The notes beneath the pieces are model-generated. The model was not told the DNA's origin. It made no database searches and saw only the letters and a program-made list of their open reading frames with translations. Source: Candidatus Fonsibacter ubiquis (GTDB taxonomy: Bacteria; Pseudomonadota; Alphaproteobacteria; Pelagibacterales; Pelagibacteraceae). From it: DNA of 64,000 bases. The translations under genes were made by a program, and so were the position numbers. Where the stretch lies: positions 859,501 to 923,500 of the forward strand of contig NZ_CP024034.1 in NCBI RefSeq assembly GCF_002688585.1, given 5' to 3'. Shown here piece after piece: positions 24,071 to 36,225 of the stretch (positions are counted from its first letter, which is position 1; the number at the start of each line of letters is the position of its first letter).

Positions 24071-24775
24071 ATGAATCTTATAAATCAAAAAATAAATAGA
24101 TTTTTGAGTAGTAAAAAAATTCTTAAAATAATATTTTATTATCATAAACTATTTGGAGAAGTAAATATCGGCAACATAGGATTTGACTTTTCAAATAAAC
24201 CTTCAAGATTAGAAATAGTTTTAGAAATAATTAAAAAGAAAAAATTTAGCACTTACTTAGAAATTGGTTGTTTTGATAATCAACTTTTTAATCATATTAA
24301 TATTAATAAAACTGGTGTTGACCCATTTAAAGGTGGAAATATAAAATTGAAAAGTGATGAATTTTTTAAAAATAATAAAAAAAAATATGATTGCATATTT
24401 ATAGATGGATTGCATACTTATGAACAAGTTAAAAAAGATATCGTTAACTCGATTAATTGTGTTAATGAAAATGGAATTATACTTATACACGACTGCCTAC
24501 CAAATAATGTGTATGAGCAAAATGTTCCTAGGAGCACTTATATTTGGAATGGAGACGTATGGAAAGCTATCGTTGAAATGAGAACAAAAGAAGACTTTCA
24601 GACTTATGTAATAAATGCTGACTATGGAATTGGAGTTATTTTAAAAAAAAAAAATCAAAATTTAATTAAAATAAATGAAACAAACTTTAAAAAATTAAAA
24701 TTTAAAGATTTTTTTTATAATTATAAAAACTGGATGAACATTATTGAATATGAAGAATTTATAAATTTATTTTAA
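24071..24775 (+). CDS. Class I SAM-dependent methyltransferase-like protein
   Basis: A 234-residue protein with a Rossmann SAM-binding start TYLEIGCFDNQLF (motif I, E/DxGCxxN), an acidic strand-2 end GVDPF, and the motif DCIFIDGLHTYEQVKKDI followed by NGIILIHDCLPNN. The IDG-x-H-x-YE pattern is typical of Methyltransf_24-type enzymes found in polysaccharide and secondary-metabolite loci. It begins 27 bp after tRNA-Thr and overlaps the convergent GT2 gene by 4 bp, so it belongs to the glycan gene set. A 12-nt A run lies at 24643-24654. The methyl acceptor is unknown. Confidence 0.72.
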   Translation: MNLINQKINRFLSSKKILKIIFYYHKLFGEVNIGNIGFDFSNKPSRLEIVLEIIKKKKFSTYLEIGCFDNQLFNHININKTGVDPFKGGNIKLKSDEFFKNNKKKYDCIFIDGLHTYEQVKKDIVNSINCVNENGIILIHDCLPNNVYEQNVPRSTYIWNGDVWKAIVEMRTKEDFQTYVINADYGIGVILKKKNQNLIKINETNFKKLKFKDFFYNYKNWMNIIEYEEFINLF

Positions 24776-25629
24776 TTTATTTTTTCGAATGGTCTAAAAT
24801 TTGAAGGTTTAGATAATACTGAATTTAAAATTCCTTTGAACTCAGCTAAAGCAAACTGAAATTTCAAACTATCTCTTAATAAAAATTTATAAATGATAAT
24901 TTTTTTGACACTTCTTAAAAAATTTGGAAATATTTTTCTTAAAGCAAAAAAAAAACCATAATGTTTTTTAAAAAAAAAAAATTTAGACCAACTGTAATGC
25001 CAATTTCTTGACAAAGTAACTTCCAACGAAAAAGATTTATTTACAGAACAAGTGCCTTCATGAGTAAACTTAATATTTTTAGATACTAACATTTTTTTTT
25101 TGTTATCAAAAATTCTTTTACAAAAGTCTAAATTTTCAAAGTACATAAAAAAATTTTCATCAAAATAACCTATATTTTCGATTTCTTTTTTATTAATAAT
25201 AAAACTATTATCAATCCACTCAACTTCTAATATATTTTTAAAACCATCTGTTTCGTCTAATTTTTTATAGAAATTTTTATGGATTGTTTCATCTAAATAA
25301 GTTGGTGCAAACAAGGCAAAGTTTTTGATTTTTTTTGCTTCGATATATAACTTATCGATACTATGATTAGTAATATTAATATCAGGTGAGTTAATCATCA
25401 CATAGTCGGTTTTTGAGTCTTTAATTCCTAAATTCATACCTGCGGCCCAGCCTAAATTTTCTTTTGGTATTATAATTTTTACATGCGAGTATTTTTCCTC
25501 AATTTCTTTTTTAAACTCAAAATTTCTAGCGTTATCAACAATTATGATAGGAAATTTTTTATCAATCTCTAAAATATGTCTTTTAATGTGATGCTCACTG
25601 TGGAAAGAAAGAAAAACTATTGTCAGCAT
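24772..25629 (-). CDS. Glycosyltransferase family 2 (rhamnosyltransferase-like)
   Basis: A 285-residue GT-A fold protein: start LTIVFLSFHSEHHIKRHI, then PIIVDNARNFEFKKEI, ENLGWAAGMNLGIKDSKTDY, a DxD-like NSPDINI, and FFMYFENLDFCKRIFDNKKK, the acceptor/ED motif of WbbL-like rhamnosyltransferases. The C-terminal part has aromatic-rich segments (SRNWHYSWSKFFFFKKHYGF) without clear transmembrane spans. It is a close paralog of the gene at 31484-32338 and shares its C-terminal RNWHW/HYGFF pattern. The promoter would lie in the 135-bp gap shared with aceE. Confidence 0.82.
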   Translation of the reverse strand: MLTIVFLSFHSEHHIKRHILEIDKKFPIIIVDNARNFEFKKEIEEKYSHVKIIIPKENLGWAAGMNLGIKDSKTDYVMINSPDINITNHSIDKLYIEAKKIKNFALFAPTYLDETIHKNFYKKLDETDGFKNILEVEWIDNSFIINKKEIENIGYFDENFFMYFENLDFCKRIFDNKKKMLVSKNIKFTHEGTCSVNKSFSLEVTLSRNWHYSWSKFFFFKKHYGFFFALRKIFPNFLRSVKKIIIYKFLLRDSLKFQFALAEFKGILNSVLSKPSNFRPFEKIN

Positions 25630-25690
25630 TTTAAATTAAAAATACCCTCTCATATATAGATGTCTATTTTATTAAGATAGTTAAAATATC

Positions 25691-25753
25691 AATTATTTAT
25701 ACTTCAATAAATAGTTGTGAGTTATTGTTTTATAAAATTAAAAACAGTATAAA
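25691..25753 (+). promoter_or_regulatory. Putative aceEF promoter with upstream inverted repeat
   Basis: TTGTTT (25725-25730), a 17-bp spacer and TATAAA (25748-25753) form a sigma-70-like promoter. A start near 25760 would leave only about 5 nt before the aceE ATG at 25765, and no Shine-Dalgarno is present. Just upstream, AATTATTTAT (25691-25700) and ATAAATAGTT (25707-25716) form a 10-bp inverted repeat with one G-T-type mismatch and a 6-bp spacer, a possible operator. It does not match the PdhR box. Confidence 0.35.
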
Positions 25754-25764
25754 TTTCATTGCAA

Positions 25765-28700
25765 ATGATTGAAATAAAAGTTCCTGACATTGGTGATTTT
25801 AAAAATGTTGAAATTATTGAAGTCTTAGTAAAAGAAGGTGATCAGATTAAAAAGAATGATCCTATTCTAACACTAGAAAGCGATAAATCTAGTGTAGAGG
25901 TACCATCTCCGTTTGATGGAAAAATTGCTAGTTTAAAAGTAAAAGTTGGGGATAAAGTTTCACAAGGATCATTAATTGCAACACTTAGTAATGGCGTATC
26001 CTCAAATATACCTCAAGAAAAATCTATATTACCAGAGACAGAAAAAATCATTCAAGAAGCTGAAAAAGCTTTAAAAAAAATAGATCCTGAAAAAAAAATT
26101 ATTAAAGAGGAACTAAGGCAAAATTTTAAGACAAAAGTTGAGTTCAAAAAATTTACTAATTATTCCAATGAACAAGATAATATCGGCGATGTAGATCCTC
26201 AGGAAACTATTGAATGGATTGACTCATTAAATGGTGTTGTTGAAAGAGACGGACCAAAAAGAGCTAATTATCTTTTAGGTAAATTAATTAACCAAGCTTA
26301 TATTTCCGGTTCAAATTTACCCTATAATCAAAAAACACCTTATATAAATACAATCCCCAGAGAAATGGAAGTAAAGTCTCCTGGAGATCAGGTTATAGAA
26401 AATAAAATTAGATCTCTAATTAGATGGAACGCTGCATGTATGGTTGTGCGCGCTAACAAAAAGCTTCCAGAACTTGGCGGACATATTGCAACCTTTGCCT
26501 CTGCAGCAACTTTGTATGATGTCGGGTTTAATCATTTTTGGAAAGCTCAAAATGAGAAAAACTTAGGAGACTTAATTTATTTTCAAGGTCACTGTTCTCC
26601 AGGAATTTATGCGAGATCTTTCCTCGAAGGGAGAATAACAACAAAACAATTAGAAAATTTTAGACAAGAAGTTGATGGTGGAGGATTATCTTCCTATCCT
26701 CACCCATGGTTAATGCCGAACTACTGGCAATTTCCAACTGTATCTATGGGTCTTGGCCCTATTATGTCAATTTATCAAGCTAGATTTATGAAATATTTGC
26801 AAAATAGATCTTTAATAGAAGATCAAAATAGAAAAGTCTGGGCTTTTTTAGGAGATGGAGAAATGGATGAGCCTGAGTCAACGGGAGCCATTAGTTTAGC
26901 TGCTAGAGAAAAATTAGATAACTTAATATTTGTAATAAATTGCAATCTTCAAAGACTAGATGGGCCTGTGAGAGGAAATGGAAAAATAATTCAAGAAATG
27001 GAAGGATTATTTAGGGGAGCCGGCTGGAATGTAATAAAAGTTATTTGGGGATCTTATTGGGATCCTCTTCTTGCAAAAGATAAAACAGGTCTTTTATTAA
27101 AAAGAATGGAAGAATGTGTTGATGGTGAATATCAAGCATTCAAAGCAAAAGGGGGAGCTTATGTTAGAAGCCATTTCTTTGGAAAATACCCTGAATTAAG
27201 AGAATTAGTTTCAAATATGACAGATGAGGATATTTGGAAACTTAACAGAGGAGGTCACGATCCTCATAAAGTATATGCGGCGTATCATGCAGCCCAAAAT
27301 CATAAAGGATCTCCAACAGTAATTATAGCTAAAACCATTAAAGGTTATGGAATGGGTAAAAGTGGCGAAAGTATAAACACGACACACCAACAAAAAAAAT
27401 TAGATGTCAATGATATGTACTATTTTAGGGATCGATTTAATATTCCAATTACAGATAAACAAGTTGAAAACTTGGAATTTTATAAACCTGATGAAAAATC
27501 AGAGGAAATTCAATACATTAAAGAAAGAAGAAAACAGCTTGGGGGTTTTATACCAACGAGAAGAACTAAAACAAAAGCTCTAAAAACTCCAGCAAATGAA
27601 TTTTTTGAATCTTCATATCTAGATTCTGGAGATAGAGAATTATCAACAACTATGGCGCTTGTAAGTATACTTACTAAAATTTTAAGAGACAAAGAGTATT
27701 CATCAAGATTAGTTCCTATAATTCCAGATGAAGCTAGAACTTTTGGAATGGAGGGATTTTTTCAAAAAATTGGAATTTATGCTCATGAAGGCCAAAAATA
27801 TGAGCCCGTGGACTCTGAACAATTAAGTTCATATCGTGAGGATAAGAGCGGGCAGGTATTAGAAGAAGGGATCACAGAAGCAGGCGCTATGTCTTCGTGG
27901 ATAGCCGCAGGAACATCTTACTCAAATCATAATATTGAAATGATTCCTATATATCTTTTTTATTCAATGTTTGGTTTTCAAAGAATTGGTGACTTTGCTT
28001 GGGCAGCAGGTGATGCCCAATGTAGAGGATTTTTAATTGGAGCTACGTCTGGAAGAACCACTCTAGCTGGTGAAGGATTACAACACCAAGATGGACACAG
28101 TTTAATTATGGCTTCTACTATTCCAAATTGTGTAAGTTATGATCCAACTTTTTCATATGAGTTAGCAGTTATATTTGAGGATGGATTAAAAAGAATGCAT
28201 GAGAAACAAGAAAATGTTTTTTATTACATAACAACTTTAAATGAAAATTATAAACATCCGGCTATGCCAAAGGGTGTGAAAAAAGAGGACATCTTAAAAG
28301 GTATGTATTTATTTAAAGAGATTAATAATAAAGGAAAAACTAAAGTTCAATTACTTGGATCTGGAGCAATATTAAACGAGGTAATAAGAGCAGCAGAAAT
28401 ATTAAGCTCTGATTTTGGAATTGACTCTGATATTTGGAGTGTAACTAGTTTTAATGAATTAAGAAAAGATGCAATAGAAATTGAAAGAAAAAATTTACTA
28501 AACCCAGATAAAAAACCAGAAAAAACTTATATAGAAAAATGTTTTGAAAAGAGAACGGGACCTTTTATAGCAGCAACAGACTATATTAGAACATTATCAG
28601 AGGGAATTAGAAACTACGTACCAGGAACTTATGTAACTTTGGGAACAGATGGATTTGGAAGAAGCGATACGAGAAAAAATTTAAGAAAATTTTTTGAGGT

Positions 28701-28833
28701 TAATAAAGAATTTATTGTTTATTCAACATTAAGCACTTTAGTAAAAGAACAAAAAATTGCATCAAAAGTAGCCACTGATGCGATGAAAAAATATAATATA
28801 GATCCTAAAAAACCTATCCCAACTAAACTATAG
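25765..28833 (+). CDS. aceE: Pyruvate dehydrogenase E1 (homodimeric type) with N-terminal lipoyl domain fusion
   Basis: AceE decarboxylates pyruvate with thiamine diphosphate and reductively acetylates lipoyl groups of E2. The 1022-residue protein starts with a complete lipoyl domain (1-77; LTLESDKSSVEVPSP with candidate lipoyl-Lys41), a charged linker (about 78-138), then an AceE body from about residue 140 (DVDPQETIEW), co-linear with the E. coli enzyme. Seen in it are INTIP, IRWNAACMVVRA, YFQGHCSPGIYARSFLEGR, the TPP motif GDGE (363-366) and YITTLNENY. Standard AceE is about 887 residues, so the extra ~135 are the fusion. ATG 25765 is preferred over TTG 25759. aceF follows after 6 bp; no lpd is adjacent. 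Confidence 0.95.
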   Translation: MIEIKVPDIGDFKNVEIIEVLVKEGDQIKKNDPILTLESDKSSVEVPSPFDGKIASLKVKVGDKVSQGSLIATLSNGVSSNIPQEKSILPETEKIIQEAEKALKKIDPEKKIIKEELRQNFKTKVEFKKFTNYSNEQDNIGDVDPQETIEWIDSLNGVVERDGPKRANYLLGKLINQAYISGSNLPYNQKTPYINTIPREMEVKSPGDQVIENKIRSLIRWNAACMVVRANKKLPELGGHIATFASAATLYDVGFNHFWKAQNEKNLGDLIYFQGHCSPGIYARSFLEGRITTKQLENFRQEVDGGGLSSYPHPWLMPNYWQFPTVSMGLGPIMSIYQARFMKYLQNRSLIEDQNRKVWAFLGDGEMDEPESTGAISLAAREKLDNLIFVINCNLQRLDGPVRGNGKIIQEMEGLFRGAGWNVIKVIWGSYWDPLLAKDKTGLLLKRMEECVDGEYQAFKAKGGAYVRSHFFGKYPELRELVSNMTDEDIWKLNRGGHDPHKVYAAYHAAQNHKGSPTVIIAKTIKGYGMGKSGESINTTHQQKKLDVNDMYYFRDRFNIPITDKQVENLEFYKPDEKSEEIQYIKERRKQLGGFIPTRRTKTKALKTPANEFFESSYLDSGDRELSTTMALVSILTKILRDKEYSSRLVPIIPDEARTFGMEGFFQKIGIYAHEGQKYEPVDSEQLSSYREDKSGQVLEEGITEAGAMSSWIAAGTSYSNHNIEMIPIYLFYSMFGFQRIGDFAWAAGDAQCRGFLIGATSGRTTLAGEGLQHQDGHSLIMASTIPNCVSYDPTFSYELAVIFEDGLKRMHEKQENVFYYITTLNENYKHPAMPKGVKKEDILKGMYLFKEINNKGKTKVQLLGSGAILNEVIRAAEILSSDFGIDSDIWSVTSFNELRKDAIEIERKNLLNPDKKPEKTYIEKCFEKRTGPFIAATDYIRTLSEGIRNYVPGTYVTLGTDGFGRSDTRKNLRKFFEVNKEFIVYSTLSTLVKEQKIASKVATDAMKKYNIDPKKPIPTKL

Positions 28834-28839
28834 TTCAAA

Positions 28840-30381
28840 ATGGCTAAAATTGTTGATTTAGTTGTTCCTAATATTGGTGATTTTAAAAATGTAGAAATTA
28901 TAGAAATTCTTATATCAGAAAACCAAAATATAAAAAAAAATGATGGAATAATTACTTTGGAAAGTGACAAATCAAGTGTTGAAGTTCCCTCTCAGTTTTC
29001 AGGTAAAATTAAAACGATCAAAGTTAAAATTGGAGATAAAATTTCTGAAGGAGATAAAATTGGAGAGATAGAAATAACTTCTGATGAGATGACTCATGAG
29101 CAGGAATCTGTCAGTAAAGAAATTAAAATACAAGAGGAAAATAAATCCTACAAAGACAATGATACCTCTTTTTTAAAAATTCCAAATCTTGGCTCTGGAA
29201 AAGACTTATTTGTTACTGAAATTCTTATTAAAAAAGATCAGCTTGTTAAAATTGATGACATTGTATTACTCATTGAAGATGAAGAAAACGCTTACGAAAT
29301 TCCATCACCAATATCAGGAATTGTAAAGAATATAACGCTTAAAGAAGGAGAAAAAATTAGAGTTGGTGACTCAATTGCAGAAATCGTAAATCAGAATTTA
29401 AAAACAGAAATAAAAAGTAAACCTATTATTGAAAATATTATTTCAAATAATAATCAATATCAAAACATAAAAAGCGCAAGTCCAAAAATTAGAAAATTTG
29501 CAAGAGAACTAGGTGTAGATATTCAGTTAGTTGAGGGAAGCGCAAGAAAAGGTAGAATTCTTGAGGAAGATATTAAAAAATTTATTAAAGGATCTTTAAG
29601 TAATAAAAATATTAAAGAAGAAGTAGTAAAAAAAATAGAAATAAAAGAAGAAAGACTTCCCTATGAGCACGGGGAATTTGGTGAAATTGATATACAAAAA
29701 ATACCAAGAATTAAAAGGCTTTCAGGACCACATTTAGTAAAGGCCTGGAATGAAATCCCACATGTTACCCAATTTGATGAAATTGATGTAACGGATATGG
29801 AGCACTTTAGAAAAAATTTAATTGATCTTAATACAAAAGAGAAAATTACTATTACTCCCCTTGCTTTTATTATGAAAGCACTAGTTAACGGGATGAAAAA
29901 ATATCCTAATTTTAATTGCTCACTTGAGCCATCTAGTGAGAATATTATTTATAAAAAATATTATCACATTGGAATTGCTGTTGACACTCCGCATGGTCTA
30001 ATGGTTCCAAAAATTAGAAACATTGATCAAAAAGATCTACTAACCTTAAGCAATGAACTTAGAAAAATTAGTAAATTAAGTAAGGAACTTAAAATCGATA
30101 AAAAAGAATTTTTTGGAGGATCAATGACGATATCAAGTCTTGGTGGAATTGGGGGGAGTTTTTTTACTCCGATTATAAACAGTCCAGAGGTTGCAATTAT
30201 AGGAATAGGAAAAACAGAAACAAAACAAATATTTATTGATGGAAAATTCATACCAAGAGCAATGATGCCAATATCACTATCTTACGATCATAGAATAATT
30301 GATGGCGCGGAAGCTGCTAGATTTTGTCAAGATCTGAAACATAGTCTTGGAAAAAACTTTGCTTTTAATTTATCATTTTAG
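28840..30381 (+). CDS. aceF: Pyruvate dehydrogenase E2, dihydrolipoamide acetyltransferase
   Basis: E2 transfers acetyl from its lipoyl arm to CoA and forms the complex core. The 513-residue protein has lipoyl domain 1 (about 3-78; LESDKSSVEVPS, Lys44), a second lipoyl-like domain (about 112-182), a peripheral-subunit-binding domain (about 212-250; SPKIRKFARELGVDI), and a catalytic domain with HVTQFDEIDVTDME and the active-site motif DHRIIDG (483-489, His484). In the second lipoyl domain the expected DKS reads EEN: Glu149 replaces the modified Lys, so it cannot be lipoylated. Domain 1 is almost the same as the lipoyl domain fused to AceE. The gene is in an operon with aceE. Confidence 0.95.
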   Translation: MAKIVDLVVPNIGDFKNVEIIEILISENQNIKKNDGIITLESDKSSVEVPSQFSGKIKTIKVKIGDKISEGDKIGEIEITSDEMTHEQESVSKEIKIQEENKSYKDNDTSFLKIPNLGSGKDLFVTEILIKKDQLVKIDDIVLLIEDEENAYEIPSPISGIVKNITLKEGEKIRVGDSIAEIVNQNLKTEIKSKPIIENIISNNNQYQNIKSASPKIRKFARELGVDIQLVEGSARKGRILEEDIKKFIKGSLSNKNIKEEVVKKIEIKEERLPYEHGEFGEIDIQKIPRIKRLSGPHLVKAWNEIPHVTQFDEIDVTDMEHFRKNLIDLNTKEKITITPLAFIMKALVNGMKKYPNFNCSLEPSSENIIYKKYYHIGIAVDTPHGLMVPKIRNIDQKDLLTLSNELRKISKLSKELKIDKKEFFGGSMTISSLGGIGGSFFTPIINSPEVAIIGIGKTETKQIFIDGKFIPRAMMPISLSYDHRIIDGAEAARFCQDLKHSLGKNFAFNLSF

Positions 30382-30383
30382 AA

Positions 30384-31487
30384 ATGATAAATGGCTATTG
30401 TTTAGAAAAATACTATCCTGTAAAAAAAATATTTGAAGATTATTTTTTAAAAGAAAGGGAAATAGGGGCTTCTTTTGCAATTTATAAAGAAGGCAAACCA
30501 TTAATAGATTTATATGGTGGTCTTAAAAATAAAAATAATAAGAGTTGGGAAGAAAATACTATTGTAAATATATTTTCAGCCACAAAAGGTATTTACGAAA
30601 TTATTGTTTCAATTCTAATTGATCAAAACATTTTAGATTTAGAAAAATCTGTTAGTTATTATTGGACTGCTTTTAAAGAAAGTAATAAAAGAGAAATTAA
30701 ACTAAAACATATTCTATCTCATCAATCAGGACTGTATAGATTTAAAAAAAAAATTACACAAAAAGATCTATTAGACTGGAATAAAATCATAACTATATTA
30801 GAAAATCAGGAGCCAGATCATCCATGTGGAGAAAAAACTTACTATCATGCAAAAACACACGGATTTTTAATTGGCGAAATTATAAAAAAAACAACAGGAA
30901 AAACCTTAGGAGAATTAATTTTTGAATTATTGTCTAAAAAACTAAAATTGGATTTTTTTATTGGAACTCCACAAAAAAAACTATCGAATATTGCCTTTCT
31001 CTACGAGGAAAAAACTGAAAAAAAATTATTATCTGAATTTAATGCATTTAATAATCCTGGGCACGAAATAAATTTTTATAATAAAGAAGATTGGCAGATG
31101 GCAGAAATTCCTTCAATGAATGGACATGGAAATGCTAGATCTATTGCTAAAATTTATGATATTTTTGTAAATGATCTAATATTAGAGAAAAATATTTTAT
31201 TATCAAAATCCTCAATTAAAAAATGTTTAACCGAAAGCATTAGTAGAATTGACGGAAGTTTAATGATGCCAATTAGATGGTCTAATGTGGGATTAATACT
31301 TCGTGGTGGGTGGTTATTTGGGAAGTATAAGGAGTCCTTTGGTCATAATGGTTGGGGCGGATCATTAGGGTTTGCTGATCCAAATTTAGGAATTGGTGTT
31401 GCTTACACTACAAATAAAATTAATCCCACTATGGGTTCTGATTTACGAATTATTAATTTACTTAAAGAATTTTATAAATTGCATTAA
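30384..31487 (+). CDS. Beta-lactamase-fold serine hydrolase (EstB/class C-like)
   Basis: A 367-residue serine hydrolase with the SxxK motif Ser65-Ala-Thr-Lys68 (FSATKGI), a Tyr motif in YYHAKTHGFLIGEI, and the third-box region SFGHNGWGGSLGFADP. These are the EstB-like esterase/beta-lactamase (PF00144) marks. There is no signal peptide, so it is probably a cytosolic esterase or amidase rather than an antibiotic-resistance enzyme. It starts 2 bp after the aceF stop and may be co-transcribed, but no metabolic link is evident. It overlaps the convergent GT2 gene by 4 bp. Confidence 0.82.
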   Translation: MINGYCLEKYYPVKKIFEDYFLKEREIGASFAIYKEGKPLIDLYGGLKNKNNKSWEENTIVNIFSATKGIYEIIVSILIDQNILDLEKSVSYYWTAFKESNKREIKLKHILSHQSGLYRFKKKITQKDLLDWNKIITILENQEPDHPCGEKTYYHAKTHGFLIGEIIKKTTGKTLGELIFELLSKKLKLDFFIGTPQKKLSNIAFLYEEKTEKKLLSEFNAFNNPGHEINFYNKEDWQMAEIPSMNGHGNARSIAKIYDIFVNDLILEKNILLSKSSIKKCLTESISRIDGSLMMPIRWSNVGLILRGGWLFGKYKESFGHNGWGGSLGFADPNLGIGVAYTTNKINPTMGSDLRIINLLKEFYKLH

Positions 31488-32338
31488 ATATTGTCTGGCC
31501 TAAGCCAAGAACGCTTCCTTAAAAAAGCATTAAATAAACCATTAAGTCTATAATAATGAATTAAAATTTTTTTTTTATTGAAAAATAATAACCCAATAAA
31601 TAATTTAAATAATGATGACAAGAATTTATTAAAAATGACTTTATATGCAATAAAAAATCCGAAATGTTTATAATTAAAATAAAACAAGGACCACATCCAA
31701 TGCCAATTTCTACACAGCTCAATATTTAAATTATTTTCTGTTGCCTGCTTAGCAAAATGTTGAACTTTTGATTTCTTGACAAGAAAAATTTTTCCACCAC
31801 TATTTTTTATTCTTTTACAAAGATCTATTTCTTCTAAGAAGAGAAAGAAATTCTCATCAAATATTTTTTCAAATATAACTTTTTTTAAATTTATTAACAT
31901 TGCAAAACCCTTGACATAATCTACTTCTATAATTTCGTCATGATAATTATTATTTTGCTCTGAAAAAAAACCGTAATTATCGAAAGTATTAGGTGCTAAA
32001 ACTGAAAAATTATCCTGTAGTATAAGCTGAGCATTATATAGCTCTTTTAAAGTATTTTCTTGTAAACGCACATCTGGATTTAATATGAAAACATATTTCG
32101 TATTTACTTTGGATATTCCTAGATTATTACCTTTTCCATAACCTAAATTTTCTTTAGCAATTACAACTTCAACATTTAAAAACTTATTTTCTAGATAATT
32201 TTTGAAATTGCTATTGTCTGAATTTTCAACAACAATAATCTTTATGCTAGAATTAATACTTTTAATACACTTTTCTATTACATGACCACTTTTAAAACAA
32301 ACTATAACAAAGGTTATATTTTTTTCAAAATTATTCAT
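31484..32338 (-). CDS. Glycosyltransferase family 2 (rhamnosyltransferase-like), paralog
   Basis: A 284-residue GT-A protein: FVIVCFKSGHVIEKCI, IIVVENSDNSNF, KENLGYGKGNNLGISKVNTKY, the DxD-like ILNPDVRL, and FFLFLEEIDLCKRIKNSGGK. The C-terminal half shares CRNWHWMWSLFYFNYKHFGF with its paralog at 24772-25629. Such enzymes add rhamnose or similar deoxysugars to O-antigen-like chains, which fits the rmlB-rmlA genes that begin 65 bp away on the other strand. The donor and acceptor are inferred only. Confidence 0.82.
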   Translation of the reverse strand: MNNFEKNITFVIVCFKSGHVIEKCIKSINSSIKIIVVENSDNSNFKNYLENKFLNVEVVIAKENLGYGKGNNLGISKVNTKYVFILNPDVRLQENTLKELYNAQLILQDNFSVLAPNTFDNYGFFSEQNNNYHDEIIEVDYVKGFAMLINLKKVIFEKIFDENFFLFLEEIDLCKRIKNSGGKIFLVKKSKVQHFAKQATENNLNIELCRNWHWMWSLFYFNYKHFGFFIAYKVIFNKFLSSLFKLFIGLLFFNKKKILIHYYRLNGLFNAFLRKRSWLRPDNI

Positions 32339-32403
32339 TAATTTAAGGTATAAAGTATTTTACAATAAATATATAAAATATTTATAAACGTTAAATTTAA
32401 AAA

Positions 32404-33411
32404 ATGAAAAAAGTTATTATAACTGGAGGATTAGGATTTATAGGCAGTAATCTTATTAATATTCTTAAAAATAAATATTTTATTATTAACATAGATAAAG
32501 TAACTTATGCTTCAAATTTTAATAATATTAATCCCTACATAAAAAACTATAGATTTTATAAAGCAGATATTAACGATAAAATTTTTATAAAAAATATTTT
32601 AAAAAAGTATAACCCATCTATAATTTTTAATCTTGCTGCCGAAACTCATGTTGATAGATCAATTGACGGACCTGAAAAGTTCATAAAAAGTAATATTCTC
32701 GGTGTTTTTAATCTTCTTGAGTCAATTAGAAATTACCAAAAAAAAATCAAATTAATACATATCTCAACTGATGAAGTATATGGAGATGTTAAAAAAAATT
32801 ATAAATCAAAAGAAGAGGATGCGTATAGACCTAGTTCACCTTATTCTGCCACCAAAGCAAGTGGTGATCTTTTGATAAAATCTTATATTCGGACGTATAA
32901 AATTCCAGCTATAATAACTAATTGTTGTAATAACTTTGGACCAAACCAATATCCAGAAAAACTTATACCAACAATAATTTATAATATATTAAATCAAAAA
33001 CCTATTCCTATTTATGGAAAAGGACAGAATATAAGAGAGTGGATTTATGTTGAAGATCATTGTGATGCTCTTATCAGAATTGCAGAAGATGGAATTATTG
33101 GAGAAAATTATAATATTGGTAGCGGAGTCCTATTAAATAATATTGATATTGCAAAAAAAATAATATTTGCCATTAAAAAAATAATCCATCACTCAAATAT
33201 TATAAGTAAAATAAAACTTGTTCGGGATAGACCGGGTCACGATCTACGATATTCTTTAAATTCCACTAAAATAAAAAATCAGTTAAAATGGGAGTGCAAA
33301 TCAAGTTTTAAAGAGAGAATTAACGAAACAATTGTGTGGTATATAAATAAATTTAAAACTAACCATTTTAAGAATGATGATTTCAAATACCGCACGGGAC
33401 TTAAAATATGA
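32404..33411 (+). CDS. rmlB: dTDP-glucose 4,6-dehydratase
   Basis: RmlB converts dTDP-glucose to dTDP-4-keto-6-deoxyglucose with bound NAD+. The 335-residue extended SDR has GGLGFIGSN (8-16), the catalytic Thr122-Asp123-Glu124 in HISTDEVYGD, Tyr147 and Lys151 in SPYSATKAS, and NNFGPNQYPEKLIP typical of the family. It overlaps rmlA (ATGA). No rmlC or rmlD is in the window, so the final sugar may not be rhamnose or those genes lie elsewhere. Confidence 0.94.
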   Translation: MKKVIITGGLGFIGSNLINILKNKYFIINIDKVTYASNFNNINPYIKNYRFYKADINDKIFIKNILKKYNPSIIFNLAAETHVDRSIDGPEKFIKSNILGVFNLLESIRNYQKKIKLIHISTDEVYGDVKKNYKSKEEDAYRPSSPYSATKASGDLLIKSYIRTYKIPAIITNCCNNFGPNQYPEKLIPTIIYNILNQKPIPIYGKGQNIREWIYVEDHCDALIRIAEDGIIGENYNIGSGVLLNNIDIAKKIIFAIKKIIHHSNIISKIKLVRDRPGHDLRYSLNSTKIKNQLKWECKSSFKERINETIVWYINKFKTNHFKNDDFKYRTGLKI

Positions 33412-34271
33412 TTAAAAAAGGAATAATATTAGCTGGCGGAAGCGGTTCAAGATTAAGTCCATTGACCAAGATAGTTAATAAGCAACTTCTACCTTTGTAT
33501 GATAAACCATTAATATTTTATCCACTATCAATTTTAATGCTTACTGAAATAAGAAATATATTAATTATTCATAATCCAAATGATGAAAGTAATTTCAGAA
33601 AAATATTAGGAGATGGATCAGGTTTTGGAATAAAAATTCAGTATAAAATACAGGATAAGCCAAACGGTTTACCAGAAGCTTTTATAGTAGGTGAAGAATT
33701 TATAAAAAAAGAAAGCGTAGCTTTAATACTTGGAGACAATTTTTTTTATGGACAGGGTTTTTCTAAAAGACTTAAAAATTTTGCAAAAAATAATTTTGGA
33801 TCAACAATTTTTACTTATTCTGTAAACAATCCAAAAGACTACGGTATTGTAGAAACTCATAGAAATAAAATATTAAATATCAAAGAAAAACCAAAAAAAA
33901 CATCATCTAAACAAGCAATAACTGGTCTATATTTTTTTGATAGCAATGTTGTAAATTTTTCAAAAAAATTAAAACCTTCAAAAAGAAATGAATTAGAAAT
34001 AGTTGATTTAATAAAAATCTATTTAAAAAATAAAAAACTTAAAGTAGAGGAAATTGGAAGAGGTAGCGCATGGATGGATACTGGCAGTATTGATGGACTT
34101 TTCGAAACATCGCAATTCATCTCGAGCATAGAAAAGAGGCAAGGTCAAAAAATTGCTTGCTTGGAAGAAATAGCTCTAAATAAGAAATGGATATCGAGAT
34201 CTTCAATTAAAAAACAAATTAATTTTTATGGGAATTGCGAATACTCAAGATATCTAAAAAAGTTAATTTAA
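33408..34271 (+). CDS. rmlA: Glucose-1-phosphate thymidylyltransferase
   Basis: RmlA makes dTDP-glucose from glucose-1-phosphate and dTTP. The 287-residue protein begins KGIILAGGSGSRLSPLTK (nucleotide-binding signature), then KQLLPLYDKPLIFYPLS, LILGDNFFYGQG (metal-binding Asp), GLYFFDSNVV and RGSAWMDTGSIDGL. Length fits. Translationally coupled to rmlB, it supplies its substrate. The convergent epimerase ends 24 bp away across an AT-only palindrome. Confidence 0.95.
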   Translation: MIKKGIILAGGSGSRLSPLTKIVNKQLLPLYDKPLIFYPLSILMLTEIRNILIIHNPNDESNFRKILGDGSGFGIKIQYKIQDKPNGLPEAFIVGEEFIKKESVALILGDNFFYGQGFSKRLKNFAKNNFGSTIFTYSVNNPKDYGIVETHRNKILNIKEKPKKTSSKQAITGLYFFDSNVVNFSKKLKPSKRNELEIVDLIKIYLKNKKLKVEEIGRGSAWMDTGSIDGLFETSQFISSIEKRQGQKIACLEEIALNKKWISRSSIKKQINFYGNCEYSRYLKKLI

Positions 34272-34295
34272 CATATTTTAACTTAAAAAATTTTT

Positions 34296-35345
34296 TTAAG
34301 AACTATAATCAATTATTTCCTCTAAGATTTTTTCTAGAGAATACTTAAATTTAAAGTTTTTATAGTCTGCTTTAAATTTTTTGATATCAGTAATGTACCA
34401 TTTATGATCACCAACTCTTGATTCTTTGTTTACAATATATTTGAAGTCAATATTAGAAATTTTCTGAACTTTTTCTATAGCTTCTAATATTGAACAACTA
34501 TTTTTTCTAGTGCCGCCAATATTATAAACTTCACCTTTTTTTGGGTTATTGAAAAAATGCCAAAAACAATTTACTAAATCATAACTATGAATATTGTCTC
34601 TAACTTGTTTGCCCTTAAAACCAAAAATGTTGTAAACAGATTTTGATAAATTAACTTTAACTAAATAATTCAAAAAACCATGAAGTTCTGCTCCCGATTG
34701 TTGCGGACCTGTAATACATCCGGCTCGAAAGACTCCCGTTTTTAAACCTATATTTTTACCATACTCCTGTACTAATAAATCACCAGAACATTTTGAAACG
34801 CCAAATAAACTATGTAACGAATTATCTATTGTCATACTTTCGTTAATTCCCTCATAAAATTTATGATTTTTTTCTAAATCCCATCTCAAATTTTTTTCTT
34901 TTAGGTTAATTTTATTTGGCGTATCTCCATATACTTTATTTGTAGAAACAAAAATAAAAACTGCATCGGGACAATATAGTTTTGTTAATTCTAACATATT
35001 CAAAGTTCCAACTGCATTAATGGAAAAGTCTACATGAGGCTGCTTAACTGCCCAATCATGTGAAGGTTGAGCAGCAGCATGAATTATTAATCTAATATTT
35101 TTTTTAAACTTAGAAAAAATGCTTGTTAATTTTGTATAATTTCTAATATCATAATTATAATGCTTATATTCTTTAAATTTTTTAATTAACTTAATCTTAT
35201 TTTTGTTAGTACTGGCTTTTTTTCCAAAAAAATAACTTCTAAAATTATTATCTATGCCAACAACATCTAATCCGTTATTTGATAAAAAACTAACAGCTTC
35301 TGAGCCCACCAAACCTGAAGAACCTGTTATTAATGCTACACCCAT
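34296..35345 (-). CDS. CDP-paratose 2-epimerase-like extended SDR
   Basis: A 349-residue NAD-binding sugar epimerase/dehydratase: ITGSSGLVGSEAV at the N-terminus, IHAAAQPSHDWAVKQPHVDF, VSTNKVYGDTP, HSLFGVSKCSGD and GKQVRDNIHSYDLV. The SHDWA and STNKVYGD blocks are those of the CDP-paratose/tyvelose 2-epimerase group. In the YxxxK site Phe181 replaces Tyr before Lys185; the HSLFGxSK form appears normal for this branch but should alter catalysis relative to classic SDRs. It heads toward DUF4422 and methyltransferase genes on the same strand. The nucleotide sugar is unproven. Confidence 0.75.
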   Translation of the reverse strand: MGVALITGSSGLVGSEAVSFLSNNGLDVVGIDNNFRSYFFGKKASTNKNKIKLIKKFKEYKHYNYDIRNYTKLTSIFSKFKKNIRLIIHAAAQPSHDWAVKQPHVDFSINAVGTLNMLELTKLYCPDAVFIFVSTNKVYGDTPNKINLKEKNLRWDLEKNHKFYEGINESMTIDNSLHSLFGVSKCSGDLLVQEYGKNIGLKTGVFRAGCITGPQQSGAELHGFLNYLVKVNLSKSVYNIFGFKGKQVRDNIHSYDLVNCFWHFFNNPKKGEVYNIGGTRKNSCSILEAIEKVQKISNIDFKYIVNKESRVGDHKWYITDIKKFKADYKNFKFKYSLEKILEEIIDYSS

Positions 35346-35367
35346 ATTAAATAATTCTTTTTTATTG

Positions 35368-36225
35368 TTACTTATTACGTGAAAAATTCTCTAAACTTAA
35401 ATCGTAGTAAATCCAAGGCCAAGTAATTGTTTTATAATATTTTCTAAACCAAAAAGGAATAAACCTCTCTGCTAAAAATGTATATATTCTCTTGAGACCA
35501 TATTCATTATTAATATCTTTATATTTAAAAATTTCTTCTTCACATCTAAATAACCATTGAAATAAGACTGGATACAAATGATCTAAAATTTTTTCTCGAA
35601 CAAAAAAACAGCTATTTGCTCCAACAAATGATGTTTCATTATCGCAATATTCGATAAAATCATTTCTATCATTATTATTTAACAATTTAGCGGCCTCAGC
35701 TAAGTTTCCATGCCCACAATGCATATCAAAATGTAATTTCAATGTTCGTTTATTTTTATTAAAAATAATACTCGGATCTTTAACTATTGATCTAAAACCT
35801 CTTTTAAAAAGTTTAGAAAATTTAACATTTGAAAGATCAATTGGATCGCATAATACAACATCAAAATTATCCCATTCTAAAGGTAACTTTTTAATTAAGA
35901 TATTATTCAGTTCTTCCGGAAAAATATTAAAATTAAGATTAGAGTTAATAATTCTCTCTCTAAATTCTAATTTAGTAAAAAAACGCCTATATTGTGAAAC
36001 ACCAATCCATTTATTAATGGATTTCGGATTTCTATTCTTCCAATACCAATAATGAAAGGTCATATCCCCATAATTAATATTTTTATTTGCAATATTAATG
36101 CCAGAGTTATCACTTAAATAATTTGAAGGATAAGAAAAGTTACCAACTCCAAAGGGTATGAGTTCTAATTTTTCTATTAAATCTAATTTTTTGTGAGTAA
36201 TACAGTAAATTTCTAAATTTGTCAT
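35368..36225 (-). CDS. DUF4422 family (capsular polysaccharide glycosyltransferase-like) protein
   Basis: A 285-residue protein starting LEIYCITHKKLDL, with a central YWKNRNPKSINKWIGVSQYRRFF and later VVLCDPIDLS, FVGANSCFFVREKILDHLYP and FLAERFIPFWF. The W-x-G-x-x-x-YRRFF motif and the ER(F)x-x-FW ending are marks of DUF4422, a GT-like family in capsule and exopolysaccharide loci. It lies between a sugar epimerase and a methyltransferase, all on the minus strand with gaps of 11-22 bp. Donor unknown. Confidence 0.78.
   Translation of the reverse strand: MTNLEIYCITHKKLDLIEKLELIPFGVGNFSYPSNYLSDNSGINIANKNINYGDMTFHYWYWKNRNPKSINKWIGVSQYRRFFTKLEFRERIINSNLNFNIFPEELNNILIKKLPLEWDNFDVVLCDPIDLSNVKFSKLFKRGFRSIVKDPSIIFNKNKRTLKLHFDMHCGHGNLAEAAKLLNNNDRNDFIEYCDNETSFVGANSCFFVREKILDHLYPVLFQWLFRCEEEIFKYKDINNEYGLKRIYTFLAERFIPFWFRKYYKTITWPWIYYDLSLENFSRNK

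Follow-up and report, generated by a model that had tools for sequence, protein, structure and literature searches.

Swinging arms of the pyruvate dehydrogenase (PDH) complex sit, by the textbook rule, on the E2 core. The locus described here raises the question of what a lipoyl domain (LD) does at the N terminus of a homodimeric E1 (AceE). It lies in a stretch of 64,000 nucleotides, the window, from Candidatus Fonsibacter ubiquis LSUCC0530, a freshwater SAR11 isolate (PMC6018831). The closest named relatives of the host genome (1,160,202 bp, single contig) are Fonsibacter MAGs at 95–96%. On sequence comparison, and at a probability of roughly 0.8, the SAR11 PDH E1 carries a functional N-terminal lipoyl arm, which would supplement the arm of E2 in Fonsibacter and be the sole one in many relatives.

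The aceE fusion gene (25765–28833; all features of aceE and aceF given here lie on the plus strand) was delineated by ORF analysis and profile searches. The reading frame runs uninterrupted from the ATG at 25765 to the stop codon at 28831–28833, with an in-frame TTG upstream at 25759, and encodes 1022 residues in the order LD, linker, homodimeric AceE. The AceF-type LD comprises residues 1–76 (25765–25992), as judged by PF00364, the fold model, and the LD tree. The Pfam profile PF00364 (Biotin_lipoyl) matches residues 3–74 with 76.1 bits against a gathering cut-off of 22.1 (E 1.9e-21), and the predicted lipoyl-lysine, Lys41 (25885–25887), occupies the DK turn of ESDKSS within TLESDKSSVEVP, as seen in the sequence and in the alignment of SAR11 E1-LDs. 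In the AlphaFold model, which is of moderate quality with a mean pLDDT of 70.4, this domain adopts a β-strand fold at a pLDDT of about 63–86. The catalytic body (residues 141–1022; 26185–28830) was assigned by TIGR00759, a match to 1l8a, and Foldseek: the NCBIfam profile TIGR00759 covers residues 141–1020 with 1464.7 bits against a curated cut-off of 859.9, which places the protein among homodimeric AceE, and E. coli AceE structures are the best Foldseek matches to the modelled body, with 1l8a also matched. The ThDP and active-site residues—the GDG motif, His240, His276, His541, Glu701, and His774—are invariant in alignment A1, and the five last-named align with E. coli His106, His142, His407, Glu571, and His640. 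The profile search detected no 2-oxoacid dehydrogenase catalytic domain (PF00198) in the fusion protein, which is thus not an E1–E2 fusion of the OdhA type. The earlier note had described, from the letters alone, a complete N-terminal LD with Lys41 in ESDKSS, followed by a charged linker and full-length AceE; both descriptions are borne out, the linker measuring 64 residues. It was silent on the degenerate second LD of the adjoining E2 and on the distribution across the family.

The charged, flexible linker (residues 77–140; 25993–26184) is fast-evolving, as indicated by low pLDDT and low identity, and is modelled at low confidence throughout except for one short helix at residues 91–103. A conserved short helix, ILPETEKIIQEAEK (26026–26067), is identified by helix prediction and linker alignments; its motif ILPETEKIIxxAE is kept in the otherwise variable E1 linkers of many SAR11 clades and is absent in others. 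It is possibly an extra docking helix. Beyond the linker, the AceE N-terminal region (residues 141–183; 26185–26313) matches the AceE peptide in PDB 9h1n, where the other chain is the peripheral subunit-binding domain (PSBD) of E2. Within it, D142, D144, E147, T148, E150, and W151 are invariant in alignment A1, and its dN/dS amounts to 0.01–0.08. NMR work has assigned PSBD binding to the AceE N terminus (PMC6270654). Together, the segment match and the presence of a PSBD on E2 mark residues 141–183 as the predicted PSBD-binding segment of an AceE.

The window's aceF (28840–30381; 513 residues), found by ORF analysis and profile searches, lies 6 nucleotides downstream of aceE and encodes the E2 of the same complex. 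It features a first LD (residues 7–77; 28858–29070; PF00364 and alignment) with Lys44 in ESDKSS; a degenerate second LD (about residues 112–186; 29173–29397), recognised by alignment, in which the lipoyl-lysine is replaced by Glu149 (codon 29284–29286; LIEDEENAYEIP); a PSBD (residues 213–245; 29476–29574) detected by PF02817 and matches to PDB 4qoy and 9h1n; and the acetyltransferase catalytic domain (residues 286–503; 29695–30348; PF00198, 249.8 bits). The long-AceF profile TIGR01348 scores 437.7 bits, below its cut-off of 552.1. The Fonsibacter E2 bears one lipoylatable and one lysine-less LD, and the lipoyl-lysine is missing from all aligned second E2-LDs, where Glu or Asn stands instead. 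The surroundings (24071–36225) hold aceEF and a gene for a serine hydrolase of the β-lactamase fold (30384–31487) among glycosyltransferase-like and nucleotide-sugar genes, and are possibly the SAR11 hypervariable region.

With an aceF carrying similar LDs directly downstream, and with an E1-LD that is 64% identical to the first E2-LD, an LD fragment of aceF could have been wrongly joined upstream of aceE by assembly or annotation. The earlier note had itself named an assembly join as a point to check. Dozens of genomes obtained independently, MAGs and single-cell genomes included, show the same junction, so the fusion is no assembly artefact; the E1-LD has, moreover, diverged from the first E2-LD, continues in frame into AceE, and is under purifying selection. 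We give the artefact practically no credence.

In a first search of relatives within the Pelagibacteraceae, the E1-LD was present in frame in 27 of 27 aceE loci with an intact N terminus, and in a named set (L036–L063) it occurs on aceE throughout, except in two loci cut by contig ends. Of 128 genomes sampled from the family, each with a completeness of 80% or more, 116 gave AceE matches, and almost all matches listed for the main aceE begin at query residues 1–7. Apparent losses in G884, G007, L035, L039, and L040 are contig-end truncations, and that in G902 is a frame break, with the LD ORF overlapping the aceE ORF in another frame; no real loss of the E1-LD is thus shown. Some subclade IIIa-like lineages carry two LDs on E1; several aceE copies have been reported for subclade IIIa, with nothing on lipoyl (PMC10030771). 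Members of the sister family (f2; G037–G060), even those more than 90% complete, are without AceE or a convincing PdhB. Outside SAR11, the comparison covered Gamma- and Betaproteobacteria, non-SAR11 Alphaproteobacteria, and a Pseudomonadota sample. The E1-LD is absent from 52 gamma- and betaproteobacterial aceE loci and from six non-SAR11 alphaproteobacterial AceE. AceE occurs in 161 of the 399 genomes of the Pseudomonadota sample; among the matches listed, only two—both from SAR11—extend into the LD, and no upstream LD was found in 10 other Pseudomonadota AceE genes with long open frames. The LD–AceE architecture is universal in the sampled Pelagibacteraceae and unusual outside SAR11. A lipoyl arm on AceE, which had been called unusual from the window, is therefore so with respect to the other Pseudomonadota sampled, where none was found, but not within SAR11, where every intact aceE examined bears one. 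The openly searchable full-text literature on the PDH of SAR11, Pelagibacter, and Fonsibacter yielded no description of an LD on AceE or of E1 as the sole arm carrier.

The lysine at the lipoyl site is conserved in every SAR11 E1-LD aligned, and its ESDKSS context is kept without exception. Substitutions at synonymous sites approach saturation, and constraint is therefore more safely read from pN and identity: among Fonsibacter-type genomes, the E1-LD retains 87–91% amino acid identity (pN 0.05–0.08), the linker 47–78% (pN 0.13–0.34), and the lysine-less second E2-LD 50–69% (pN 0.17–0.32), while the first E2-LD is intermediate at 70–94%. Within the clade whose E2 lacks LDs, the E1-LD is 95–100% identical among members. 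The E1-LD might instead be a non-catalytic structural or docking module, given that lysine-less LD-like domains exist—the second E2-LD of Fonsibacter being one—and that the E1 linker holds a conserved helix. The invariant lysine and its motif speak against such a module, as do genomes with an LD-less E2 and no other PDH-type LD, and we consider it very improbable.

As to its origin, the E1-LD scores 90.6 bits against the long AceF profile and 21.7 bits against the PdhB profile. The latter value, confined to the LD region, falls far below the cut-off of 454 for NF008854, the LD-bearing E1-β family. Descent from the LD of an alphaproteobacterial PdhB (E1-β), rather than copying from AceF, would be a natural thought for a domain in SAR11, which is itself alphaproteobacterial, because alphaproteobacterial E1-β carries its LD N-terminally as well. 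Besides the profile scores, the approximately unbiased (AU) test opposes it: grouping of the E1-LD with alphaproteobacterial PdhB LDs is rejected (p 0.016), whereas a single clade of SAR11 E1- and E2-LDs is not (p 0.42). We consider this ancestry very improbable, and by sequence the E1-LD is assigned to the AceF type, not to the alphaproteobacterial PdhB type. The LD trees are built on 76 columns and are poorly resolved in their finer order; in them, the E1-LD of one clade groups with the E2-LDs of its sister clade (support 90/93), perhaps because of gene conversion.

Across the Pelagibacteraceae, E2 bears two, one, or no LDs. Most sampled SAR11 retain one, and in 25 of 77 aceEF loci E2 consists of PSBD and catalytic domain only. 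The E2 of L049 (8066–8962; 298 residues), for example, begins two bases past the stop codon of aceE and opens straight with the PSBD; it features HRIING in place of the usual acetyltransferase motif HxxxDG. In whole-genome scans, genomes with an LD-less E2 hold PF00364 domains on AceE, SucB, and AccB only, plus partial matches at contig edges; one of them, G013, is 95% complete at 0% contamination. With only these domains at hand, E1 would carry the sole PDH arm there, unless the LD of SucB acts in trans for PDH as well, which is possible in principle. When E2-LD presence is mapped on a gammaproteobacteria-rooted tree of the AceE body, whose branches have SH-aLRT support only, six changes appear, at least five of which are forced by well-supported branches; parsimony does not distinguish loss from regain of the E2-LD step by step. 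No intact sequence of this tree is without the E1-LD. Some SAR11 carry, in addition, a second AceE paralog of about 890 residues, TIGR03186-like, without LD or adjacent E2 (L160, 5922–8597, minus strand; also in L161, L236, L237, and L238). All 11 paralog-bearing genomes examined keep an E2-LD, and none of 21 genomes with an LD-less E2 showed the paralog; the genomes are related, and the pattern is suggestive of an armless E1 needing an armed E2.

A lipoylated E1-LD could also be mainly auxiliary, with catalysis left to the E2-LDs wherever these exist, and with an E1 arm that only raises the local lipoyl concentration or buffers acetyl groups and electrons. The LDs of E. coli are redundant, which counts for such a role, as do the lipoylatable first E2-LD of Fonsibacter and the single E2-LD of most sampled SAR11. 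An auxiliary domain is harder to reconcile with the absence of E2-LDs from 25 of 77 loci while E1-LDs were never lost, and with the better conservation of the E1-LD between Fonsibacter and L041 (87% identity, compared with 70% for the first E2-LD). We regard it as doubtful, though as the most plausible of the alternatives. That E1 has its own acetyl-shuttling arm, as the earlier note proposed, is well supported at the level of sequence by the conserved lysine, strong purifying selection, and genomes in which that domain is the only PDH LD. Its further proposal, that the arm compensates for reduced lipoylation of E2, holds in spirit, since the second E2-LD of Fonsibacter lacks its lysine and the E2 of many relatives lacks LDs; the better description is a relocation of the arm from E2 to E1, either completed or still under way.

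The host genome encodes five PF00364 domains: one on AceE, two on AceF, and one each on SucB and AccB. A PdhAB-type E1 is absent from it, SucA being the sole other E1 found, and the NF008854 cut-off is exceeded in none of 16 genomes of the order. The host genome has one E3, encoded near sucAB and without an LD. Of the lipoylation machinery, lipA is present; neither LipB nor LplA was located: the PF03099 search returned a BirA-like protein only, and a motif scan of two stretches gave no LipB.

For a functional E1 arm, the following working can be proposed. Lys41 of AceE would be lipoylated, and the E1-LD, on its tether of ~64 residues and the mobile AceE N terminus, would be reductively acetylated at its own or a neighbouring E1 active site. 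The acetyl group would then pass from the E1-LD to the E2 core, and the domain would be re-oxidised by the single shared E3, docked on other E2 PSBDs. E1 may be held on the core by its conserved N-terminal segment docked on an E2 PSBD, so that the arm stays inside the complex. A PSBD binds either E1 or E3 (PMC8421416); the E1 arm would therefore need an E3 on a neighbouring E2 chain. In Fonsibacter, the E1 arm would act beside one lipoylatable E2-LD, the second being a lysine-less remnant. It is probable, at slightly lower confidence than the main reading, that in several marine SAR11 lineages E1 acetylates its own arm and delivers to an armless E2 core, with Fonsibacter, whose E2 has a live arm and a dead one, as an intermediate.

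SAR11 thus offers a natural series: E2 has two arms, a live arm and a dead one, or no arm at all, and E1 keeps its arm in every case. Such a series allows a test of whether active-site coupling requires an arm on the core or just anywhere within the complex. Because SAR11 ranks with the most abundant heterotrophs of seas and lakes, PDH with an LD–AceE may be a very common form, so far unremarked. Analyses of lipoylation or proteomes that assume lipoyl-E2 would miss the E1 arm.

LDs on E3 or on heterotetrameric E1 are already known, and in openly searchable full text we found none described on a homodimeric AceE. The redistribution of LD and catalysis among subunits is shared with OdhA; that protein has acquired the catalytic domain of E2 and is not known to bear an LD, whereas SAR11 AceE gains an LD and no E2 domain. 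In actinobacterial OdhA, the E2 catalytic domain joined to E1o is LD-less (PMC10415282). The PDH of Mycoplasma hyopneumoniae carries its LD on E3 (PdhD), as shown experimentally (PMC7873978), and likewise has its arm off E2 on a peripheral enzyme; this arm is on E3, whereas the SAR11 arm is on an E1 of the AceE type. LDs off E2 are further known from E3 in Alcaligenes and Neisseria and from an E1 subunit in Zymomonas (PMC7873978). The E3 enzymes with an extra LD—in Neisseria, Alcaligenes, and the gammaproteobacteria found here—resemble the SAR11 case in placing an AceF-type LD on a peripheral enzyme; in the gammaproteobacterial loci, however, the E2-LDs are retained, and the Fonsibacter E3 bears no LD. 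PdhB of Zymomonas mobilis (NF008854) shares the N-terminal LD on an E1 subunit but belongs to an α2β2 E1 and another LD lineage, and the SAR11 genomes examined are without PdhB. The closest likeness in body is to E. coli AceE (TIGR00759; 1l8a/4qoy), with the full catalytic body, the PSBD-binding N terminus, and the order aceEF in common. E. coli AceE and all others inspected open directly with the PSBD-binding segment, whereas SAR11 AceE features an LD and a linker ahead of it.
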